Both the position numbers and the translations under genes were made by a program. This document shows positions 2,607 to 31,315 of a DNA stretch of 35,819 nt, one piece after another. Source of the DNA: Gammaproteobacteria bacterium. Lineage in GTDB: Bacteria > Pseudomonadota > Gammaproteobacteria > UBA6429 > Thiohalophilaceae. The stretch spans positions 1 through 35,819 of the forward strand of contig JAOULO010000034.1 in the NCBI GenBank assembly GCA_029881995.1, written 5' to 3'. How positions within the stretch are numbered: position 1 is the stretch's first letter; every line of letters begins with the position of its first letter. The notes under the pieces are model-generated. The model saw nothing but the letters and a program-made list of their open reading frames with translations, had not been told where the DNA came from and did not search any database.

Positions 2607-3128
2607 CTAGTTGTTATGAAGTGAGTTCTTTAGTTGTAGTTTTGATAATACTTCAAAATTAATTTCTGAATAAGTAAATAATTTCCCTCCATATTTTTTC
2701 ATAAAGTCTTTTGCGCTACTCTCTTCCTTGAAACTGGCAAGTGTGGGGCCCATTGCACCCGTTAATTGGGTGCTTGTTACATAAAACGCTTTTTTTGCAT
2801 TGATGTAATGTTTTTCATCTGGATTTTTCCATTCGCTGTGTGCACCCATGTTATGTACATAGGCAACACGTAAAATAGCTGGTGTATCAGGTTGCAATAG
2901 CCAACTAAATGCATCTACCGTTGAGCAAAACCTTAAGGGTTGTTCTTGATGATGAATAAAGGCCTGTGCTTTTGGGCCGGGAAATCCAGTAACGTCCATG
3001 CCACACACATGACATATCTCGCCACCAGATAGGGCGATGGGCTTGATGTCTATTGTATTTGCCTGCTTGTTACATGAGATTAAGCAGAAAAGCACAACGA
3101 TATATAGTAGTGAGGTTACTTTTTTCAT
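2607..3128 (-). CDS. nosL: NosL, copper chaperone lipoprotein of the nos cluster
   Basis: Outer-membrane or periplasmic lipoprotein that delivers Cu(I) for assembly of the nitrous oxide reductase CuZ site. 173 residues from MKKVTSLLYIVVLFCLISC, a signal peptide ending in a lipobox (LISC, Cys19). The family's metal-binding core GEICHVCGMDVTGFPGPKAQ is present with its C-x-x-C-G-M element. The start at 3128 is one base after the nosY stop (TGAGATG), so the two are translationally coupled. A longer frame from 3164 would destroy the signal peptide. Last gene of nosRZDFYL; no clear terminator was seen between 2551 and 2606. Confidence 0.93.
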   Translation of the reverse strand: MKKVTSLLYIVVLFCLISCNKQANTIDIKPIALSGGEICHVCGMDVTGFPGPKAQAFIHHQEQPLRFCSTVDAFSWLLQPDTPAILRVAYVHNMGAHSEWKNPDEKHYINAKKAFYVTSTQLTGAMGPTLASFKEESSAKDFMKKYGGKLFTYSEINFEVLSKLQLKNSLHNN

Positions 3129-3129
3129 C

Positions 3130-3963
3130 TCAGACTCGTCGTGTATTAAATCGCCACACAGCAATGGAGAGTGGGGTAATGATCCAGATTAGCAGGATGA
3201 AACTGAGAATATAGGGGTTAAACAGGGCACCGGAGTCACTCAGATGGGCAAGGCCAGTATATTGTCGTGCAGCTTCAAAACCGGCCAGGTTTATCAGGCG
3301 AAAGACATCGGTTGGATTAAGCAGCAACAGGTAAGGTAACCAGTCACCGCCACTTGCCCCTTTGGTGAGCACTAACTGACCTAACATAAGCAGGTCAAAG
3401 ATTAGGACAAACCAGAACCAGAGTAGTAGAGATACACCTGCTGCACGGGATTTTTCCACGACTATGACACTGGTGACATAGGCCATGGCGATGAATACCC
3501 ATCCCAGTAAGGTTGCGGTGAGTATGAACAGACCAAAGGCACGCCACAGGTTAAAGTCGAACAATTCGCCTGTCATGATAGCGATTAACAGTGCAGCAAT
3601 ACCAAAACCTATGCAGGTAGAGGCAGCCATAATTCCGGCATGTCCCATGAACTTACCAATTAGTAATTCATGACGTTGTAAGGGATATGTGAGCAGTAGT
3701 AGTAAAGTTCCCTGTTCATCTTCTCCAACGATAGAATCATAAGCAAGCAGCAGGGCAATGAGAGGAATTAAAAAGATAGCCAAACTAGCGAGGCTGATAA
3801 TCGTGGTGGAGAGAGAGGTAAAACCCACTATGCCAGAGGCAGAAGCACCAAAATAGGCCAGGCCCAGGGCAAGCAGGGCAAAGCAGATACTGATGGCCAT
3901 GACCCAGCGATTGCGCATGCCATCGCGAAATTCTTTTTCAGCGACAATCAAAATGGTATTCAT
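3130..3963 (-). CDS. nosY: NosY, ABC transporter permease for NosZ maturation
   Basis: Inner-membrane permease that works with the ATPase NosF and periplasmic NosD to supply sulfur for CuZ maturation. 277 residues, about six hydrophobic helices. The N-terminus has the ABC-2 type layout: a short amphipathic start (MNTILIVAEKEFRDGMRNRW), then helices, then the cytosolic EDEQGTLLLLLTYPLQRHELL segment. The start overlaps the nosF stop by four bases (ATGA), so expression is coupled. Full length for the family, no defects. Confidence 0.94.
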   Translation of the reverse strand: MNTILIVAEKEFRDGMRNRWVMAISICFALLALGLAYFGASASGIVGFTSLSTTIISLASLAIFLIPLIALLLAYDSIVGEDEQGTLLLLLTYPLQRHELLIGKFMGHAGIMAASTCIGFGIAALLIAIMTGELFDFNLWRAFGLFILTATLLGWVFIAMAYVTSVIVVEKSRAAGVSLLLWFWFVLIFDLLMLGQLVLTKGASGGDWLPYLLLLNPTDVFRLINLAGFEAARQYTGLAHLSDSGALFNPYILSFILLIWIITPLSIAVWRFNTRRV

Positions 3964-4871
3964 GATGGGATCCGGTTGTAATAGTTGTAAATGCTTTCGA
4001 GGGTTGGACTAATCACGTCGATATCGCTGACACTGGGATCAGCCGTGAGGATACGCATGATGTCCATCTTACGCTCCAGAGGGGCAAAGAGTTCCAGACG
4101 TTTACCATTAAGGTGCTGGAAATCGACATCGAGGCCGGTAAGTTGTTGTTGCCAGTCAGTATCTGGCCATTCGCCACGGACATGTAAAGTTAAAGGTAGT
4201 TTGGTCGCCTTGCGTAGTTCATCCAGTGAGCCACAGGCGAGTAGTTGACCTTTACCAAGAATGGCCGCTCGATCGATATGTTTTTCAATGCCGGGTAGAA
4301 CATGAGATGAAATCAGAATGGTCGTACCCTGCATGCGCAATTCAGCAAGGTTGGTATAAAAATCCGAAGTGGCAACAGGATCAAGACCGGCAGTGGGCTC
4401 ATCAAGTAATAGTAATCGAGGTTTTCCCAACAGTGCCTGGGCCAGTCCCAGTCGTTGGCGCATTCCCTTTGAATATGTCTTAACTCTACGGTCAGCGGCA
4501 TAGGCCAGCCCCAGTTGCTCCAGTAGTCGGTCGGTTTCCTTAAGGGAGGCCTTTTTTAGTTTGCAGAAATATTCCAGTACTTCACGGCCGGTAAGCTGAC
4601 TGTAAAAGCTAACATTTTCAGGCAGATATCCTAACTGTTTTCTTAAATTGTTTGCCTGTGGTCCAAGTGGTGATTCATTAAATAGTTTGATATCACCCTG
4701 GCTGGCTTCGATAATGCCAAGAATTAATTTCATACTGGTGGTCTTGCCAGCACCGTTATGACCCAGCAGACCAAGTATTTCACCTTCGTAGAGATCAATG
4801 CTGATATCATCCAGGGCCTTAAAATCATCATACAGTTTACTGACCTGTTGTATTTCTATGACTTTATTCAT
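3960..4871 (-). CDS. nosF: NosF, ABC transporter ATPase for NosZ maturation
   Basis: Cytoplasmic ATPase of the NosDFY complex. 303 residues. Walker A GHNGAGKT at 37-44, signature SKGMRQ at 134-139, Walker B LLLLDEP at 153-159 with the catalytic Glu, and H-loop SSH at 188-190. All are intact. The C-terminal third (about 215-303) is the extra domain typical of ABC-2 type ATPases. The start overlaps the nosD stop by four bases and the stop overlaps the nosY start by four. Confidence 0.95.
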   Translation of the reverse strand: MNKVIEIQQVSKLYDDFKALDDISIDLYEGEILGLLGHNGAGKTTSMKLILGIIEASQGDIKLFNESPLGPQANNLRKQLGYLPENVSFYSQLTGREVLEYFCKLKKASLKETDRLLEQLGLAYAADRRVKTYSKGMRQRLGLAQALLGKPRLLLLDEPTAGLDPVATSDFYTNLAELRMQGTTILISSHVLPGIEKHIDRAAILGKGQLLACGSLDELRKATKLPLTLHVRGEWPDTDWQQQLTGLDVDFQHLNGKRLELFAPLERKMDIMRILTADPSVSDIDVISPTLESIYNYYNRIPS

Positions 4872-6172
4872 GAATCCGTCCTCAGCATCTGTGGTGAGAG
4901 CATCAGGGGGGCACTGTCACGAACACCCTGTGGTTTTAAAACAGGAAACTGTGTTTGTACCCAGCGCAGGGTTTGTACTGCAGGGCTATTCATCAACATA
5001 CGGGCGATAGGAAATTTCCATAATAGTTTGTCTACGGCATCATTGGGTTCGTAATCCTTATCGCCAATTCCATCGGCGTTAAGATCCCAGCCAAGGTAAT
5101 CACTCCAGAAATTACCCTGACCTTCTTTTGACCAGTCCTGAGGGCGATTGGAGACATACTTAACCTGCACGCGGTTACGAGCAAAGGCATTGCCATAAAT
5201 TTTATTGTCTTCAGAACCTGCTGTCAGGTGGATACCAATATCACAGTTGGCAAACAGGTTGCTCTTAATCTCATTGTATTGTGAGTTGTAAATAAATATG
5301 GCTTTGCCTTCTGCTCCAAGGATGCGGGCTCCTCCAGTGACAAAAGCTCCACCTTCTCTGACATTGTTAATACGATTATTACTAATATCACTATAGGTTA
5401 TAAAATTGAGCAATATGCCATAATTTCGATCCTGCTCTGAGCTGTTGTTCTGTACAGTAAGTCGAGTGGATTGCATGAGTGCATATCCTGTTCTCGTGTT
5501 CCGAGTTTTGTTATTAATAACCTTGTTAGAGTGGGAATACATGTAATGTACACCATACCTTAAATCATACATGGTATTGGCATCGATAATATTATTATTA
5601 CTGCTTTCGATATATACACCATCCCGCGTCTGCCAGATTTCATTGCCCTTGATGGTAGCTTTTTTGACCAACGACAAGTGGATGCCATTACCTCGATCCT
5701 GAGAACGTCGATCAGGTGTACCATGAACCTTATTGTTCAAGATTTTAGAGCCGGAGGTGCGCCATAGATAAATCCCGAAGGTATTGCCATCAAACTGATT
5801 ATTTTCAATAAGTATATTGATGGCCGATTTCTCAACGAAGATCCCGGCATTCATTTTTGTCAGGTTATGGCCGGAGTTTTTGATGGTCAGTCCTCGAATA
5901 ATGACATTAGGGGCAGTGACTCGGATAACATCATTCTTGAATTGACCATCAAGTATTGCACCCTGCTCGCCTTGAAGAATAAGTGATTTGTTTATCTGTA
6001 ATTGACCAGCGTATAGGCCGGGTGAAAAAATAATTTTGTCACCGTTCTTGGCGGCATTGATAATTTGTTGTGGCTTACTTTTGCTTGCAGTGAGGCGATA
6101 CTCCACTGCTGTTAATGAAGTAGAATAGCAGCCAAGTAAGCTAATAAAGAATAGTTTTCTGGAATATTTCAT
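4868..6172 (-). CDS. nosD: NosD, periplasmic copper-binding beta-helix protein
   Basis: Periplasmic protein that docks on NosFY and receives or passes material for CuZ assembly. 434 residues. The first 22 (MKYSRKLFFISLLGCYSTSL) form a signal peptide. From about 60 to 330 there are repeated turns of the N-x-I-x-x-N-x type (for example IENNQFDGNTFGIYLWRTS, IKGNEIWQTRDGVYIESS), which is the right-handed parallel beta-helix of the CASH/NosD family. The C-terminal RPQDWSKEGQGNFWSDYLGW is a NosD hallmark. Lies 48 bases after the nosZ stop and overlaps nosF by four bases. Confidence 0.95.
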   Translation of the reverse strand: MKYSRKLFFISLLGCYSTSLTAVEYRLTASKSKPQQIINAAKNGDKIIFSPGLYAGQLQINKSLILQGEQGAILDGQFKNDVIRVTAPNVIIRGLTIKNSGHNLTKMNAGIFVEKSAINILIENNQFDGNTFGIYLWRTSGSKILNNKVHGTPDRRSQDRGNGIHLSLVKKATIKGNEIWQTRDGVYIESSNNNIIDANTMYDLRYGVHYMYSHSNKVINNKTRNTRTGYALMQSTRLTVQNNSSEQDRNYGILLNFITYSDISNNRINNVREGGAFVTGGARILGAEGKAIFIYNSQYNEIKSNLFANCDIGIHLTAGSEDNKIYGNAFARNRVQVKYVSNRPQDWSKEGQGNFWSDYLGWDLNADGIGDKDYEPNDAVDKLLWKFPIARMLMNSPAVQTLRWVQTQFPVLKPQGVRDSAPLMLSPQMLRTDS

Positions 6173-6220: not shown

Positions 6221-6694
6221 TTATCGTGTTACCAGCATACGTCCGCGCATTTCCATATGCAATGCATGGCAGAACCAGTTACAGTAATACCAGTGAACCC
6301 CTGGCTTGTTGGCCTTAAAGGTAATTGAGGCTGTTTGCTGTGGCCCAATCTCCATACTGACACCATGATCCACCATACAGAAGCCATGTGTGACGTCCTC
6401 GATCCTGTCCAGGTTGGTTACGATAACGGTTACTGTATCACCCTTTTTGACAGTAAATTCATTCATGCCAAAGTTGGGTGCAACAGAAGTCATATAGACA
6501 TAAACCCTTTTTCCCTTACGGATCACCTTGTTGTCTTTCTCAAGGTTAACACCATGTTGTTTTGCCATTCTTGAGGTTTTGCTAAAGAAGGGGTCATTAC
6601 GTTTCCATATTTTTAATGGTTTCATCTTGCTGCGGTGAACAATCATGCAGTCATGGGGTTCTGCATAGGTTGGACCATCATGCACCAACTTCAT
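6221..6694 (-). CDS. nosZ: NosZ C-terminal part (CuA domain), separated by a frameshift
   Basis: 157 residues from the first ATG, but the same frame continues upstream to about 6730 with the NosZ sequence [19 protein letters not shown], so this is the tail of one split gene rather than a separate protein. It carries the complete electron-entry CuA site: H103, C138, W140, C142, H146 and M149 in [16 protein letters not shown]. It also holds the last CuZ histidine (H14, in TYAEPHD). On its own it would lack a Tat signal and could not reach the periplasm. ATG 6694 has no clear ribosome site, so independent translation is unlikely. If the frameshift is a sequencing error, joining it to 6715-8082 gives a normal clade I NosZ. 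Confidence 0.93.
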
Positions 6695-6714: not shown

Positions 6715-8082
6715 TTAGCTGATCATTTTGGCGTGCAGCGGGCCGACATTAAGGAAACGGTCTTTGGAGAATTTACATAGTGCTACCAGCCACTTACCAT
6801 CAGCATCACGGGTTTCACCCATGGAGGTATGGTTATGCCCAGGTTGGTAATGTACATCGAGTTTTTGTTTGATGTAGTTAGTCTTTTTACCTTTATAAGC
6901 CTTTATAGCATCTTCAACATTCCATTTTACAATCTGACTATCAATAAATAGTGTTGTATAGGCATTACCACGACCATCAAAAGCAGTATGCAGTGGACCC
7001 AGTCCCAGTTCGGGTTCACCAACAACAGTATCGCGAGGCTCCTTCAGTTTGCCTGCAAACCAGTCATCAAGTTTCTTGGTTGAGATAATGGTGACGGTGG
7101 GAGAGAGCTTACCGTTAGCGACGAAGTACTTTCCATCAGGTGAAGTATTCAGACCATGAGGGCTTTTTGGTACGGGGATATACAAGGTTAGTTTAGAGTT
7201 CTTGCGACCGTCTAACACTGGAACTTTGGATTTGCCAATTGTCTTGTATTGCTTGTTCTTGATAGCCTTTTCGATTTCAGGAATGTTGAAAACAACGGCC
7301 CAGTCACGCTCGCCACCCAGACTTTCAGAAATATTCAGTGCATTTTCACCGTTATAGCAGGTAGCACAGGCATATTTACCTTGATAGTCTGCATCCACGT
7401 TATCAAGATTTCCATCGACAATGATTTGCCAGGCAACCGTCATTTTGTCCGCATCGACGGCATTGAACATAGTCTGGTATGCCGCGTTGTTAGTCATATT
7501 TTGACCATTATTCGGCGCAGGAATACGATGTTCACCATTACAGAATACATATTTTGTGCGGGGAACCTTTTGTACACGCAGACCATGAATGGCTGACACA
7601 TTAGGAATGCTGATCATTTTGTCAACTTTCATGATATCACAGCGAATACGAGCGACGCGGGTATTGGCCTTATCGTTGATAAAGACATATTTACCATCAT
7701 ATCGACCGTCTTTCATACTCATGTGGGGATGATGGGCATCACCATTCATGTAAGGGCCACCGCCCCCTTTCATGATCTGTTTACTTTCGTCAGTGAGGCC
7801 CCAGCCGGTTGCACTATCGACATTAAAGACTGGGATACGCATTAATTCACGCATAGATGGCAGACCAAGGATGCGTACTTCACCGGAGTGACCACCACTC
7901 CAGAATCCGTAGTATTCGTCCAGTTCACCAAGTCCAACTGTGCCATCCGCTGCTTTGGCCTGTGGTACCAGTCCCAGCATACCTGAACCGATTCCTGCTC
8001 CAGTGGCCCCAGCTACGGCTGTGGCACCCAGGAATTCTCGTCGGGTGAGACCGTTCTTTTCCTCTTCTTTTTTGTTACTCAT
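6715..8082 (-). CDS. nosZ: NosZ N-terminal part (Tat signal and propeller), frameshifted
   Basis: Nitrous oxide reductase reduces N2O to N2 in the periplasm. 455 residues starting at MSNKKEEEK, with GGAGG (about 8093-8089) just upstream; the ATG at 8094 overlaps that ribosome site and is less likely. The Tat signal is [10 protein letters not shown], about residues 12-21, which marks clade I. The seven-bladed propeller carries CuZ ligands H117 and H118 (DAHHPHMS), H166 (IHGL), H309 (SPHGL), H365 (PLHTAF) and one in GHNH (416-418). The frame ends too early with GPLHAKMIS-stop, where the family reads [14 protein letters not shown]. That is explained by one missing base near 6730. The rest of the protein follows downstream in the -1 frame. 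Confidence 0.95.
6724..6733 (-). other. nosZ: Frameshift point in nosZ
   Basis: Reading the minus strand, the family would need GCC-GAA-AAT-GAT-CAG; the window has GCCAAAATGATCAG, one base short. The upstream frame then runs into TAA at 6717-6715, while the other frame (CAA AAT GAT CAG CTA ATC) continues without a stop to the nosZ end. The missing base falls beside a run of four A, a place where a sequencing or assembly error is easy. The site is not a canonical X-XXY-YYZ slippery heptamer. Confidence 0.85.
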
Positions 8083-8161: not shown

Positions 8162-10291
8162 CTACTCTGTTGTTTTAGAATTCTTGCCTGTGGCTCGGTC
8201 GTGTTTTTTTCGACGATCAACAAGCGGTGGGCATTTGTATTCATCCCAATAAGTCACCTGACAATCCATACAATAATGACATTCATTAATCTGTATCTCG
8301 CCGCGATCATTGATGGCCTGAATTTCACATTCTTTTGCGCATGTTTGGCATGGGTTACCACACTCTTTGCGGCGACGTAACCAGTTAACTAGACTTAGTT
8401 TAGCTGGTACTGCAAGTGCAGCACCTAATGGGCAAATATATTTGCAATAAAATTTACAATTAAAAATTGAAATGAAAATTAAAAGCAAGGCGTATAGAAC
8501 AAATACAAGCTCTCTATCAAAGCGTAAAGTAATTGCAGTTTTAAAAGGTTCAATCTCAGCATACCGTTCTGCTGATGATAATGATTCAAGAGAAATACCA
8601 AACAGCACCATGAGAATTAAATATTTAATACCCCAGAGGCGATCATGCAAAAATTGTGGGACGTTTAACTGGACTACTTTATAGTGCATAGCAACCTGGT
8701 TAACGAGCTTCTGAATTGCCCCAAATGGGCAAAGCCAGCCACAGTAAACGCCACGTCCCCATAACAGTAATGTGCCGGCGACAAACACCCATAAAATAAA
8801 CATTGCTGGATCGATTAAAAAAGTATTCCAGCTAAACTCTTGCATGACGGAGCCGGTAAAGGTGAAGACATTGACAATGGAAAGTTGTCCGAGCATATAC
8901 CAGCCAATAAAAAATACGGTATAGATTAAGAAGCCAGTTCTTAGTCGGGATAATAGTTTTGGTCTTTTTGCCAGAATATCTTCCATGGCCATAATTATGG
9001 TAACGGTAATAAGGCCGAGACTTAATATAATTATCTGGAATATTCGGTCACGCCAGACAGCTCGCCAGATAGGTTCATCGAGGTCATCCTCAACAAGCAT
9101 TTGAGTAGACTGTTCTACATAAGCTTCAGGTATGGCATATCTTCCGGTAAAGCTTGAGAAGACACTGTCTAGTGGGCCGGTCTGTCTTTTCACTAGTAAT
9201 TCAATTTCCCAATCTAAGCCCGGGTCAAATTGATGATTTGGTCTAATTACAAAGATGGCCATCTCAGAAAGCTTTGGCATATTCTTGGCATAGGTATCAC
9301 TTAAACGAGTGTAATCGAGGTCACGGAATGAGATTTCCCGATTCGCCTGTCGAATATGGATTCGATCAAAAATACCGCCACGGACATAACCGGAGCCTTT
9401 GAATGAATATATGCCATTAGCCATCATGGCGATGGCATGTTCACCAGGCTTAAGATCTACCATCAAACTGCTGTACTGATCATCTCCTAATAGATTGCGT
9501 CCAATAGTTGGGGCATTTAGATAGGCATAATAGAGGTCAATGAATGTCTTCATTCCCTGGCCAGGCTCTGCCTGGTCGACTTTTTCGGCCTCTGTTCTAA
9601 CAAAGGCATTATCTACCTGCTTTCTGGTCAGATGGAGTCGACGAACAGCACCACTATCAGTTAATTCTTTCCAGTCGGATTTACTAAAAAGTTCAGTGCG
9701 TACTCTTGCTGGGGCACGTCTCGCCTTGCGTGTATTGGGTATGATTTTCTTACTAATAGCCACTTCTCTGGCAGAACGGAGGATGGCTTGATTCATTACC
9801 ATGACAGTTACGGTGGCACCGGTAATGGCATCGACATTGACAAAACCTTCTTGACCCCCAGCGCCAACTTTTATCCTGGCATCTACACGGTTACCGATAT
9901 ACTGATTTACAAATTCATCAAGTGTAGATTCAGGAATGCCAACCAGTAATATTGGCTCATGATGTTCAATAATCCGTATACCTTTGATAATGCCTTTCGT
10001 ATCAATACCAACCAACATATTGATAGGCCGACCAGAATAGGCTGGGATAGGTGCGATTTGATTTGTCAGAAATAGATAACCAATTATTTTTCGACCTTCG
10101 TATACCTTTGAGCTTTCTGGTTTGCCTTCAAAGGATGAAATCTTGCTTGCTTCTGGAAAAATGGACTTCCATGGAAGTTCCTGTGGAGAGTTATTTTCGG
10201 CTTGTGCGGGAGTAATTATATTTACTAAGGTGATGAATAAAGAGATATAGGCTGCTTTATTGAATCTCCGTACAATATTAATACATACCAT
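8162..10291 (-). CDS. nosR: NosR, flavin and iron-sulfur membrane protein for N2O reduction
   Basis: Inner-membrane electron donor to NosZ and needed for nosZ expression. 709 residues. Signal peptide about 1-31; periplasmic FMN-binding domain about 60-170 with the flavinylation motif TGAT (T160); five or so membrane helices between about 415 and 630. It has two C-x-x-x-C-P motifs (C517/C521 in YCGWLCP and C616/C620 in YCKYICP) and a C-terminal pair of ferredoxin-type clusters (C644, C648, C651, C655 and C671, C674, C677, C687). The C-x-x-x-C-x-x-C spacing of the first group is slightly unusual. No flavin transferase gene (apbE/nosX) lies in the window. First gene of the nos cluster; weak GGAA ribosome site before ATG 10291. 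Confidence 0.96.
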   Translation of the reverse strand: MVCINIVRRFNKAAYISLFITLVNIITPAQAENNSPQELPWKSIFPEASKISSFEGKPESSKVYEGRKIIGYLFLTNQIAPIPAYSGRPINMLVGIDTKGIIKGIRIIEHHEPILLVGIPESTLDEFVNQYIGNRVDARIKVGAGGQEGFVNVDAITGATVTVMVMNQAILRSAREVAISKKIIPNTRKARRAPARVRTELFSKSDWKELTDSGAVRRLHLTRKQVDNAFVRTEAEKVDQAEPGQGMKTFIDLYYAYLNAPTIGRNLLGDDQYSSLMVDLKPGEHAIAMMANGIYSFKGSGYVRGGIFDRIHIRQANREISFRDLDYTRLSDTYAKNMPKLSEMAIFVIRPNHQFDPGLDWEIELLVKRQTGPLDSVFSSFTGRYAIPEAYVEQSTQMLVEDDLDEPIWRAVWRDRIFQIIILSLGLITVTIIMAMEDILAKRPKLLSRLRTGFLIYTVFFIGWYMLGQLSIVNVFTFTGSVMQEFSWNTFLIDPAMFILWVFVAGTLLLWGRGVYCGWLCPFGAIQKLVNQVAMHYKVVQLNVPQFLHDRLWGIKYLILMVLFGISLESLSSAERYAEIEPFKTAITLRFDRELVFVLYALLLIFISIFNCKFYCKYICPLGAALAVPAKLSLVNWLRRRKECGNPCQTCAKECEIQAINDRGEIQINECHYCMDCQVTYWDEYKCPPLVDRRKKHDRATGKNSKTTE

Positions 10292-13081: not shown

Positions 13082-13495
13082 TTAATGAATGGCTTCTGCT
13101 GCTTCCAGTACAATACCAGCCAGCTTGTGTGAACCCCGAGCCAGATCATCAATGGAAAACAGGCCCGTTATTCTGTTGTCATGGTCAACAACGGCAAGTC
13201 GACGGATATGGTGCTGTTGCATCACTTTTGCTGCATCGGCAATATCATCATCTTCATAACAGGTCGCTACGTCTCTTTTCATGATGTTGCTGATAGGTAT
13301 TGATGATGGATCACTACCGTTTGCAACGACAAAGCAGACAAGGTCTCTATCAGTGACAATACCAACCAGTTTTTCATCATTTAGCACAGGTAGAGAACCA
13401 ATATTCATATCACGCATTTTTTTTGACGCCTGTCGGGTGTTGTGCTGCGGGGTGATAGATTCGACCTGTTTGCTCATTAATTCAAATACTCTCAT
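13082..13495 (-). CDS. CBS-domain pair protein (second of tandem pair)
   Basis: 137 residues, again two CBS modules (about 1-62 and 68-130) with the motifs GSLPVLNDEKLVGIVTDRDLVC and HIRRLAVVDHDNRITGLFSIDDLA. It precedes the sister gene by 25 bases in the same operon. Ribosome site AGGAGATAG. Paralogue of 12634-13056; the N-terminal module differs most. Ligand presumably AMP/ATP or NADH-type, by family; target unknown. Confidence 0.9.
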   Translation of the reverse strand: MRVFELMSKQVESITPQHNTRQASKKMRDMNIGSLPVLNDEKLVGIVTDRDLVCFVVANGSDPSSIPISNIMKRDVATCYEDDDIADAAKVMQQHHIRRLAVVDHDNRITGLFSIDDLARGSHKLAGIVLEAAEAIH

Positions 13496-15356: not shown

Positions 15357-16453
15357 GCTTTCTGAGTATCGCGCTTGATTGGTACAGCATACATCATATC
15401 TTCACTTGTACCACGGTTGAGACCATTTACCAGACCTTTTAAAATTATCTTGGATGTGGCCAATACAGGAATGGCCACCAGCATTCCGATAAACCCAAAG
15501 AAATAACCAAACACCACAACACCGAGTAACACCAGCATGGGATGTAGATCTACGGTGCTGGCAATCAGGCTGGGTATCACAAATATGTTATCAATTAACT
15601 GTGCCGTTAATACCACCGCAGCAATACTAACCAGTAACCAGATATCCGGTGTACTTGAGCCTAACGCGACCAACATCGGCGGCAGCATGGACAGGAGGGG
15701 ACCTACATAGGGAATCAGGTTCAGGAAACCAGCCAGCACACCAAACAGCACTGCAGTATCCAGACCTATTAAATAAAAGCCAGTGACTGTGACCATGGCA
15801 ATAATGGCTGACTGCATAAATACACTGCGAATGTAGTTCTGGAGTTTTTTCGCTACACGGAAATAGATCAACCAGCCCAGTTCATAGGCCTTGTTAGGCA
15901 ACCAGCTCATGGCGGTGTTGCGCATCTTGCGATAATCACGCAATAAAAAGAAAGTGATGAGAGGAATAAAGACCAGAGCAAAAACCGATTGCACCATAAT
16001 ACCCGCAGATGAGACCACAGCATCGGTACTCTGTGATTTAAGGTCGGTCAGCCAGCGTTCGCCAAGCCGGGTGTCAACCTGCATCCCCATGGCATTGATC
16101 AGAGAAGCACCGAGTCCATCAAGAATTTTTGCTACCTGTGTAGCGATAGTCGGCAGGCGAGTTTGCAACCATTCCCATTGATCCAGCATCAGGGGAATAC
16201 CGATCACCAGACACACAACCCCGATGGCAACAACGGCCATTAATACAATGATGATGGATGAGATGGCATTCAGGCCACTGCGCATCAGACGGTTTTTCAG
16301 AGGGTCAAGAATACTAAAGAGGATGAATGCAATAATCAGGGGAATTAGCACCGGTTTTAAAAGCAGAACCAGTACAGTCAGCATCAGGATAATTCCAACA
16401 TAAATGATCAGAGCCCGTCCTATCGGATGGTTGAAGATCGTTCTCAGGATCAT
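15353..16453 (-). CDS. AI-2E family transporter
   Basis: Integral membrane protein of the AI-2E/PerM/TqsA superfamily. 366 residues with about eight helices, starting ALIIYVGIILMLTVLVLL. The conserved central signature is visible as YVGPLLSMLPPMLVAL (GLNLIPYVGPLLS), and PMLVLLGVVVFGYFFGFIGMLVAIPVLA near the end. Family members export autoinducer-2 or exchange Na+/H+, and many have unknown substrates, so the name should not be read as function. The ATG overlaps the stop of the cyclic-nucleotide-binding gene by four bases, so the pair is translated together. Confidence 0.9.
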   Translation of the reverse strand: MILRTIFNHPIGRALIIYVGIILMLTVLVLLLKPVLIPLIIAFILFSILDPLKNRLMRSGLNAISSIIIVLMAVVAIGVVCLVIGIPLMLDQWEWLQTRLPTIATQVAKILDGLGASLINAMGMQVDTRLGERWLTDLKSQSTDAVVSSAGIMVQSVFALVFIPLITFFLLRDYRKMRNTAMSWLPNKAYELGWLIYFRVAKKLQNYIRSVFMQSAIIAMVTVTGFYLIGLDTAVLFGVLAGFLNLIPYVGPLLSMLPPMLVALGSSTPDIWLLVSIAAVVLTAQLIDNIFVIPSLIASTVDLHPMLVLLGVVVFGYFFGFIGMLVAIPVLATSKIILKGLVNGLNRGTSEDMMYAVPIKRDTQKA

Positions 16454-20574: not shown

Positions 20575-23500
20575 ATGATCGCAGGTATTATCGACTGGTC
20601 GCTCAAAAACCGTTTCCTGGTTTTGTTGCTGACCGCTATCTTAATCGGCTGGGGTTTGTATGCGGTTAAAAACACTCCGTTGGATGCCATTCCTGATCTG
20701 TCTGATGTACAGGTCATAATTAAAACCACTTATCCTGGACAGGCACCACGGGTTGTCGAGGATCAGGTCACTTATCCTTTAACAACCGCCATGTTATCCG
20801 TACCTGGTGCGGTGACGGTGAGGGGCTATTCCTTCTTTAATGATTCCTATGTCTATATCATTTTTAAAGACGGTACCGATCCCTACTGGGCACGTTCACG
20901 AGTGCTTGAGTATTTAAGCCAGGTCGCGACTCGATTACCACCCGAGGCGAGACCTGCACTGGGTCCCGATGCCACCGGTGTGGGTTGGGTGTATGAATAT
21001 GCCCTGGTGGATCGCAGTAACAAACTGGATCTTTCACAACTGCGTAGCCTGCAGGACTGGTTCCTGAAGTATGAGCTGCAAACAGTGACCGGTGTTTCAG
21101 AAGTTGCGACTGTTGGCGGCATGGTCAAACAATATCAGGTGGTACTCAACCCGGATCGTATGCGTGCCTATGGTCTGCCATTGCATACGGTTCGTATGGC
21201 CATCCGTAATGCCAATCAGGAAGTCGGTGGTTCGGTGATCGAAATGGCCGAAGCCGAATACATGGTACGAGCGACTGGTTATATCGATGAGTTGGAAGAT
21301 CTGCGTCGAATACCATTGGGTGTAAACAAACAGGGTACACCGATCCTGTTAAAAGATGTTGCCGAGGTGCGTCTTGGTCCACAGATGCGTCGCGGGATTG
21401 CCGAGCTGGATGGTGAAGGTGAAGTGGTCGGTGGCATTATTGTGATGCGTTTTGGTGAGAATGCGCTTAAAACCATCAAGGGGGTAAAGGAGAAACTGGC
21501 CGAACTCAAGAACGGTCTGCCAGAAGGGGTGGATATCGTTACCACTTATGACCGCTCTGATTTGATCAATCGTGCAGTTAATAACCTCAATATGAAACTC
21601 ATCGAAGAGTTTATCGTGGTGGCCCTGGTCTGCGCGGTGTTCCTGTTCCATCTGCGCTCGGCCCTTGTGGTAATCATCAGTCTGCCCATTGGTATTCTTA
21701 CTGCGTTTATTATTATGTACAGCCAGGGTATTAATGCCAACATTATGTCATTGGGGGGGATTGCCATTGCCATCGGCGCCATGGTGGATGCGGCCATTGT
21801 GATGATCGAGAATGTACATAAACATATTGAACAAGAACCCCTTACCGATGAGAATCGCTGGCGAATTATACGTGAGGCCACCATGGAAGTGGGGCCACCA
21901 CTGTTTTTCTCACTGTTAATTATTACGCTGTCATTCCTGCCGGTATTTACCCTGGAGGCCCAGGAGGGGCGCCTGTTTGCTCCGCTGGCTTATACCAAGA
22001 CCTATGCCATGGCGGCCGCGGCGGGATTGTCGATTACACTGGTGCCAGTCTTGATGGGGTATTTCATCCGTGGGCATATCACTCCGGAACATAAGAACCC
22101 AATCAATCGCATGTTGATCAAAGGCTATACCCCGTTTATCCATTACGTACTGGAAAAACCCAAAAAGGTGTTATTGATTGCACTTGGACTTGTCGTAATG
22201 GGTATCTGGCCCATGAGCCAGATTGGTTCCGAATTTATGCCGGACCTTGATGAAGGGGACCTGATGTATATGCCAACCACCTTCCCCGGTGTGTCGGTGG
22301 GTAAGGCACAGGAGCTTTTACAACAGACCGATAAGCTGATTAAAACCATTCCCGAAGTCAAACGGGTATTCGGTAAGGTTGGTCGTGCCGATACTGCAAC
22401 AGATCCGGCACCGCTGACCATGATTGAAACTACCATTCAGTTCAAACCTAAATCTGAATGGCGTGAGGGCATGACCATTGAGAAGATCAAGCAGGAGCTT
22501 AACCAGTTGATCAAGTTCCCCGGTCTGACCAATGCCTGGGTTATGCCTATTAAGACCCGTATCGATATGCTGGCCACGGGTATTAAAACCCCGGTTGGTA
22601 TCAAGGTGGCCGGTGCGGATCTGAATATCATTCAGGATATTGGCAAGCGTATTGAAGATGTGGTGCGTAAGGTGCCGGGTACCGTGTCGGCCTATTCAGA
22701 GCGTGTCGCAGGTGGCAGGTATATCACGATAGATGTTAACCGAGTTGCAGCATCACGCTTTGGTTTGAATATTAGTGATGTACATGATGTGGTTCGTACC
22801 GCGGTAGGTGGTATGCAGGTAGCACAAAGTGTTGAAGGCCTGGAACGTTATCCCATTAATGTGCGTTACCCTCGTGAAGTTCGTGACTCATTGGAACGAC
22901 TCAAGCACCTGCCCATAGTGACAAGTAAGGGAGCACGTATACCATTATCCGAAGTTGCCGATGTGCGAGCCGAAATGGGACCGGCCATGATCAAAAGTGA
23001 AAACGCACGTCCTAATGGATGGACCTTTGTGGATATCGAAGGACGAGACCTGGGTTCCTATGTGGAAGAAGCACAACGTGTGGTCAGTGAACAGGTGGAA
23101 CTACCACCCGGTTATTCCATCTCATGGTCCGGGCAGTATGAATATATGGTACGCGCAAAGGAACGCCTGAGTGTGGTAGTGCCATTAACGTTGGTGATTA
23201 TTGTACTGCTTTTATATCTCAACTTCCGAAACATTATCGAAGTCCTGATTATCATGGGAACACTTCCTCTTGCACTGGTGGGTAGCTACTGGCTGCTTTA
23301 TCTGCTGGGTTACAACATGTCGGTAGCCGTTGGTGTTGGCTTTATAGCACTTGCCGGTGTGGCGGTAGAGATAGGTGTGGTAATGCTGGTTTATCTCAAC
23401 CAGGCATACCAGAAGCATATAGTTGAACATGGCAAGGTACACACACCAACCATTGAAGAACTTCGCACAGCGGTGATCGAAGGCGCATTAATGCGAGTTC

Positions 23501-23721
23501 GTCCTATCATGATGACCGTGGCGGCAATTATCGCCGGCCTGTTACCGATTATGCTCGGCGGGGGTACGGGTTCAGAAGTCATGCGTCGTATCGCTGCGCC
23601 CATGGTAGGTGGCATGGTTAGCGCAACCCTCCTAACCCTGGTAGTGATCCCAGCAGTGTTCTTTATCTGGAAACAACGCCACCTGGAAAAAGGTGAAGTC
23701 TATAAGGATGATGCAAGATGA
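20575..23721 (+). CDS. cusA: CusA-type Cu(I)/Ag(I) RND efflux pump
   Basis: Inner-membrane proton-driven pump that takes Cu(I)/Ag(I) from the periplasm. 1048 residues, 12 helices. The helix-4 motif GGIAIAIGAMVDAAIVMIEN is that of the copper/silver (HME4) subfamily. The three substrate methionines are in place: DLMYMPTT (M573-equivalent), APLTMIETT (M623) and IDMLATGIK (M672). Starts GGAGACGATCATG after cusB; the stop overlaps the cytochrome start by four bases. No CusC-type outer-membrane factor gene is nearby. Full length, no defect. Confidence 0.97.
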   Translation: MIAGIIDWSLKNRFLVLLLTAILIGWGLYAVKNTPLDAIPDLSDVQVIIKTTYPGQAPRVVEDQVTYPLTTAMLSVPGAVTVRGYSFFNDSYVYIIFKDGTDPYWARSRVLEYLSQVATRLPPEARPALGPDATGVGWVYEYALVDRSNKLDLSQLRSLQDWFLKYELQTVTGVSEVATVGGMVKQYQVVLNPDRMRAYGLPLHTVRMAIRNANQEVGGSVIEMAEAEYMVRATGYIDELEDLRRIPLGVNKQGTPILLKDVAEVRLGPQMRRGIAELDGEGEVVGGIIVMRFGENALKTIKGVKEKLAELKNGLPEGVDIVTTYDRSDLINRAVNNLNMKLIEEFIVVALVCAVFLFHLRSALVVIISLPIGILTAFIIMYSQGINANIMSLGGIAIAIGAMVDAAIVMIENVHKHIEQEPLTDENRWRIIREATMEVGPPLFFSLLIITLSFLPVFTLEAQEGRLFAPLAYTKTYAMAAAAGLSITLVPVLMGYFIRGHITPEHKNPINRMLIKGYTPFIHYVLEKPKKVLLIALGLVVMGIWPMSQIGSEFMPDLDEGDLMYMPTTFPGVSVGKAQELLQQTDKLIKTIPEVKRVFGKVGRADTATDPAPLTMIETTIQFKPKSEWREGMTIEKIKQELNQLIKFPGLTNAWVMPIKTRIDMLATGIKTPVGIKVAGADLNIIQDIGKRIEDVVRKVPGTVSAYSERVAGGRYITIDVNRVAASRFGLNISDVHDVVRTAVGGMQVAQSVEGLERYPINVRYPREVRDSLERLKHLPIVTSKGARIPLSEVADVRAEMGPAMIKSENARPNGWTFVDIEGRDLGSYVEEAQRVVSEQVELPPGYSISWSGQYEYMVRAKERLSVVVPLTLVIIVLLLYLNFRNIIEVLIIMGTLPLALVGSYWLLYLLGYNMSVAVGVGFIALAGVAVEIGVVMLVYLNQAYQKHIVEHGKVHTPTIEELRTAVIEGALMRVRPIMMTVAAIIAGLLPIMLGGGTGSEVMRRIAAPMVGGMVSATLLTLVVIPAVFFIWKQRHLEKGEVYKDDAR

Positions 23722-27701: not shown

Positions 27702-31315
<3,614 letters not shown>

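Follow-up and report, generated by a model that had tools for sequence, protein, structure and literature searches.

The TAT-dependent nitrous-oxide reductase NosZ, which removes the greenhouse gas N2O and is represented by the NCBIfam family TIGR04244 and by solved structures such as 5i5i, 3sbp and 9f8x, is the closest described system to the gene examined here. Both pieces of this gene match the same solved chains, but the gene is split by one base, and under standard rules its two frames do not join into a single protein. Denitrification genes that carry point lesions yet are otherwise still recognisable have been described in the draft genome of Bacillus bataviensis, where nirK and qnorB are disrupted (PMC3475470); its authors expect the nirK stop to be a sequencing artefact, whereas the qnorB lesions are left as either mutations or sequencing errors; that case differs from ours in the genes and the phylum, and there a phenotype could be compared. 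Non-functional nosZ sequence also occurs in Pseudogulbenkiania NH8B, whose nosZ-like pseudogenes are described in PMC5017806 as 183-bp fragments beside full-length nosZ, whereas the present assembly showed no second copy. On a more general level, published work states that incomplete denitrification stopping at N2O can stem from nosZ mutations (PMC9270275) and that indels in Nanopore assemblies often lead to frameshift errors in gene calling (PMC9262707), although the present draft is not necessarily a Nanopore one. Among the matches listed in literature searches on nosZ frameshifts, nosZ pseudogenes and indels in MAGs, no title reports this case.

A nosZ gene in two frames

The window, i.e., the whole stretch of 35,819 nucleotides that was analysed, is one entire contig (C79) of a draft genome of 3,527,679 bases in 132 contigs, 97.34% complete and 4.16% contaminated; this draft may be a metagenome bin, hence the term strain is uncertain here. 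The nos genes lie on the minus strand in the order nosR (10291-8162), nosZ (8082-6221, in two frames), nosD, nosF, nosY and nosL, and the nosZ gene is of the TAT type (clade I). The features are as follows.

8162-10291, minus strand: nosR, full length (NF046105, 1056.7 bits, cut-off 1000, profile 8-680 of 680)
6715-8082, minus strand: nosZ upstream piece, comprising the region of the TAT signal and the greater part of the beta-propeller, ending at the premature TAA 6717-6715
6726-6732, minus strand: site of the one-base shortfall in nosZ, GCC AAAA
6221-6748, minus strand: nosZ downstream piece, in a different frame, first ATG at 6694, with PF13473 and PF00116 matches
4868-6172, minus strand: nosD, full length (TIGR04247, 484.4 bits, cut-off 300, profile 2-376 of 377)
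3960-4871, minus strand: nosF, ABC ATPase (PF00005, 1-137 of 137), named by cluster position
3130-3963, minus strand: nosY, ABC-2 permease (PF12679, 2-281 of 283), named by cluster position
2607-3164, minus strand: nosL, full length (PF05573, 1-130 of 131)

The original prediction that the other nos genes are complete was borne out, as nosR and nosD score above their NCBIfam cut-offs across almost the whole model and the Pfam models of nosL, nosY and nosF are matched almost end to end. Among the 25 families listed in an NCBIfam search with the nosF frame, none was above its cut-off and none was NosF. Elsewhere on the same contig, two large genes resembling metal-efflux RND pumps were noticed by eye at 20575-23721 and 28121-31306 of the window, each adjoined by adaptor-like genes.

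The upstream nosZ frame begins at ATG 8094 or at ATG 8082, the latter preceded by GGAGG, and terminates at the TAA noted above, the frame being lost at 6726-6732; the downstream frame extends without interruption from 6748 to the stop codon at 6223-6221 and corresponds to the C-terminal ~170 residues of NosZ. When aligned to an intact NosZ from the same family (L002, 621 aa), the upstream piece covered residues 3-453 with 80.7% identity and the downstream piece residues 449-619 with 78.9% identity, in two frames of one strand. With TIGR04244, the upstream piece matched profile positions 2-459 of 627 (729.8 bits, E 2.8e-219) and the downstream piece positions 472-626 (273.3 bits, E 4.4e-81); because both pieces match this family, the split match is not due to chance. 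The upstream piece alone passes the curated cut-off of 625 bits, and it carries a TAT signal at its residues 16-48 (TIGR01409, 22.4 bits, cut-off 16.7). Thus, a single continuous frame for full-length NosZ was not found, and the split noted earlier was confirmed by two frames that cover the profile and the intact protein in succession. The interval 6724-8082, originally given as the feature, is essentially the upstream half, and the downstream half at 6748-6221 also belongs to it.

Compared with its relatives, the window lacks one base at 6726-6732, in agreement with the single-base cause proposed for the split. The codon at this site encodes Glu in 23, Gln in 6 and Asp in 2 of the 31 records matched by our motif pattern, which was narrow and missed 70 of 101 records, so that the counts describe these 31 matches only; a missing G, as had been suggested, is therefore the natural reading. 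When the assembly was searched with the upstream piece, no second nosZ copy was found. The same query detected distant NosZ proteins in other genomes (open frames of 771-825 aa); therefore, a distant second copy would probably have shown.

The downstream piece contains the rest of the interrupted propeller repeat with an AEPHD motif, the His of which is the seventh CuZ ligand, followed by the CuA cupredoxin domain. By alignment to solved chains, the CuA motif lies in the downstream frame, consistent with the earlier claim that this frame holds the CuA ligands, and six CuZ-type histidines lie upstream. The CuZ histidines and the CuA ligands are accordingly not found within one polypeptide, and because the AEPHD and CuA motifs are both downstream, the product of the upstream frame alone should form neither copper site. 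The break does not fall at a domain border but inside a propeller repeat, with positions 1-46 of the 71 of PF18764 in the upstream piece; the downstream piece starts within this repeat and has no signal peptide.

Conservation of nosZ and other frameshifts in the draft

Besides the window's own, 99 loci were examined, two of which (L094 and L096) end before the site; the remaining 97 represent 96 distinct proteins, those of L015 and L020 being identical. None of these 97 is split, and all are read in one frame without a stop. A nosZ match was obtained in 19 of the 58 genomes searched, the window's own included, and the gene is unsplit in both same-genus genomes, G001 and G002. Identities of the upstream and downstream pieces, respectively, were 80.6% and 78.9% for G014, 78.2% and 81.9% for G001, 75.4% and 77.8% for G002, 75.3% and 73.1% for G029, 75.4% and 77.8% for G025, and 69.5% and 68.2% for G020. 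The two pieces are about equally conserved, and no further decay or relaxed constraint was observed; therefore, the lesion is either absent from the cell or very young. Among viral sequences, 18 pattern matches included no relative, and among plasmids, 144 matching records included none with at least 80% identity and are not informative.

A comparative screen of the draft with relatives' stretches reported nosZ as the only split, but its power was low, with a best match of at least 45% identity for 51 of 432 queries, and a hexamer-based junction detector was used instead, with thresholds that varied between runs. The detector recovered 124 of 200 simulated one-base deletions in frames of at least 1050 bases, shorter genes being less well covered. 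In 85 stretches totalling 1,492,543 bases (1.49 Mb) of the 3.53 Mb draft, it flagged 47 junctions, among which nosZ and a paralogue of EF-G were the only clear breaks within one gene when judged by eye, without family searches. The remaining junctions appeared by eye to be neighbouring genes, antisense or short segments, the exceptions being L212, L193 and L197. The L212 junction resembles an IS3-type orfA/orfB pair; on the minus strand of L197 (18073-17998), the coding signal of a heptosyltransferase-like frame begins ahead of the first ATG, GTG or TTG, indicating either an atypical start codon or a further minor error. In-frame stops inside genes were flagged 30 times in the same 1.49 Mb, with no clear broken gene by eye. 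Breaks are few in this draft, and indels are not widespread in the assembly.

The EF-G paralogue (L120, 12192-14356 on contig C14 of the same genome, G000) is one base short, with the break at about 13447-13457, and its close homologues in G001, G002, G003 and G020 are each in one frame with 81-88% identity. It is the only gene in the assembly read as EF-G; other TIGR00484 matches reach at most 213 bits and, by score and length, are presumably other translation GTPases. The assembly yielded no canonical EF-G, no rpsG and no EF-Tu, and in G002 and G014, too, EF-Tu is present in pieces only. In relatives, canonical-type EF-G adjoins an S7-like frame, confirmed as rpsG in G002 and G014; given this position and the absence of rpsG and EF-Tu as well, the canonical EF-G copy is probably just missing from the assembly. 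The split EF-G had been considered as proof of assembly error, and this argument was dropped, as the operon of the canonical copy was not found in the assembly. Ten sampled short contigs of the draft read entirely N.

In 400 kb of the relative G020 (3 contigs), this detector marked 37 junctions, about three of which are probable breaks by eye; frameshifts are therefore not peculiar to the present draft. These lie near 15590 on the plus strand of L165 and, counted along the minus strand, near 8200 in L166 and near 9030 in L167, in frames that by eye resemble glutathione reductase, an ABC permease and an oxidoreductase, respectively.

Origin of the missing base

We consider that the chances are slightly better than even that the split in nosZ is a sequencing or assembly error. 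A TAT-type nosZ within a nosRZDFYL cluster would then have been assembled one base short at 6726-6732, the base would be missing from the assembly and not from the cell, and the organism would make a normal NosZ. In favour of an error, nosZ shows no decay, none of the 97 other loci is split, and the nos neighbours match their models almost end to end; in addition, the same draft contains another gene put out of frame by one base, an EF-G paralogue that is intact in four relatives, and the draft is fragmented, with rpsG, EF-Tu and canonical EF-G not found. The lack of clear in-frame stops also points to error, since real mutation should yield those too. Each of the two breaks is a loss of a single base, a pattern slightly more in keeping with error than with mutation; two events, however, are too few to separate the two and are weak evidence. 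Against an error, the site contains no long homopolymer, frameshifts are rare, with two clear ones in 1.49 Mb, and the breaks in G020 show that such events occur elsewhere and may be real. Furthermore, both affected genes, encoding a facultative enzyme and an EF-G paralogue, could be dispensable, as a real mutation requires, and neither of the breaks in the sampled draft lies in a gene known to be essential.

A genuine loss of one base in the very recent past, which would inactivate nosZ and abolish N2O reduction, is a serious possibility, somewhat short of an even chance. The upstream product would then keep the TAT signal and lack the last part of the propeller and the CuA domain, and the downstream frame would lack an export signal. 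The assembled sequence itself shows the deletion, and the rarity of frameshifts in the sampled draft means that error is not the default explanation. N2O reduction is often dispensable. Loss of the gene would also be in line with the published statement that nosZ mutations can leave denitrification ending at N2O (PMC9270275). However, such a deletion must be very recent, as nosZ and its neighbours show no further decay, it is shared by none of the 97 other loci, and the EF-G paralogue in the same draft bears the same type of lesion. On balance, we lean towards an error over a very young deletion.

It is highly improbable that recoding through a -1 slip in translation or transcription, or a fresh start of translation at ATG 6694, yields a working or two-piece NosZ, even though the downstream frame is still conserved and this ATG lies 20 bases past the stop. 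The zero frame reads GCC AAA ATG ATC, with no slippery heptamer and an A-run of only four, and by the pairing rules for -1 frameshifting a slip here would pair the tRNAs badly. The fold predicted for the RNA from 6735 to 6640, a segment that contains the site, is not clearly exceptional, with an MFE of -23.0 versus a shuffle mean of -18.15 (z -1.58) and 14 of 200 shuffles equal or better, and the shift is conserved in none of the 97 other spanning loci. A two-piece NosZ is further disfavoured by a break inside the PF18764 repeat, away from any domain border, and by a downstream piece without a signal peptide. These results support the original ranking of recoding as the least likely option. 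Reassembly of the propeller with a CuA piece translated on its own, or a frameshift event of an undescribed kind that preserves enzyme function, is more improbable still.

Nitrous oxide metabolism

The suggestion that a mutation here makes the organism an N2O emitter was not supported. In the 97.34%-complete assembly, nirS (cytochrome cd1 nitrite reductase) was not found, no nirK (copper nitrite reductase) match was above cut-off (best 60.2 bits versus 296.3), and the qNor-type PF22085 domain was not found, while napA is present in the genome. The absences of the nitrite and NO reductase genes searched are provisional because the assembly is incomplete.

The split is an ordinary one-base frameshift, whether by error or by recent loss. 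The matter is chiefly one of annotation, in that a gene count would label the organism as nosZ-broken from one base of a draft. If the deletion proves real, an N2O sink would have been removed and N2O consumption would end, the loss being caught soon after the event in a cluster that is otherwise complete.
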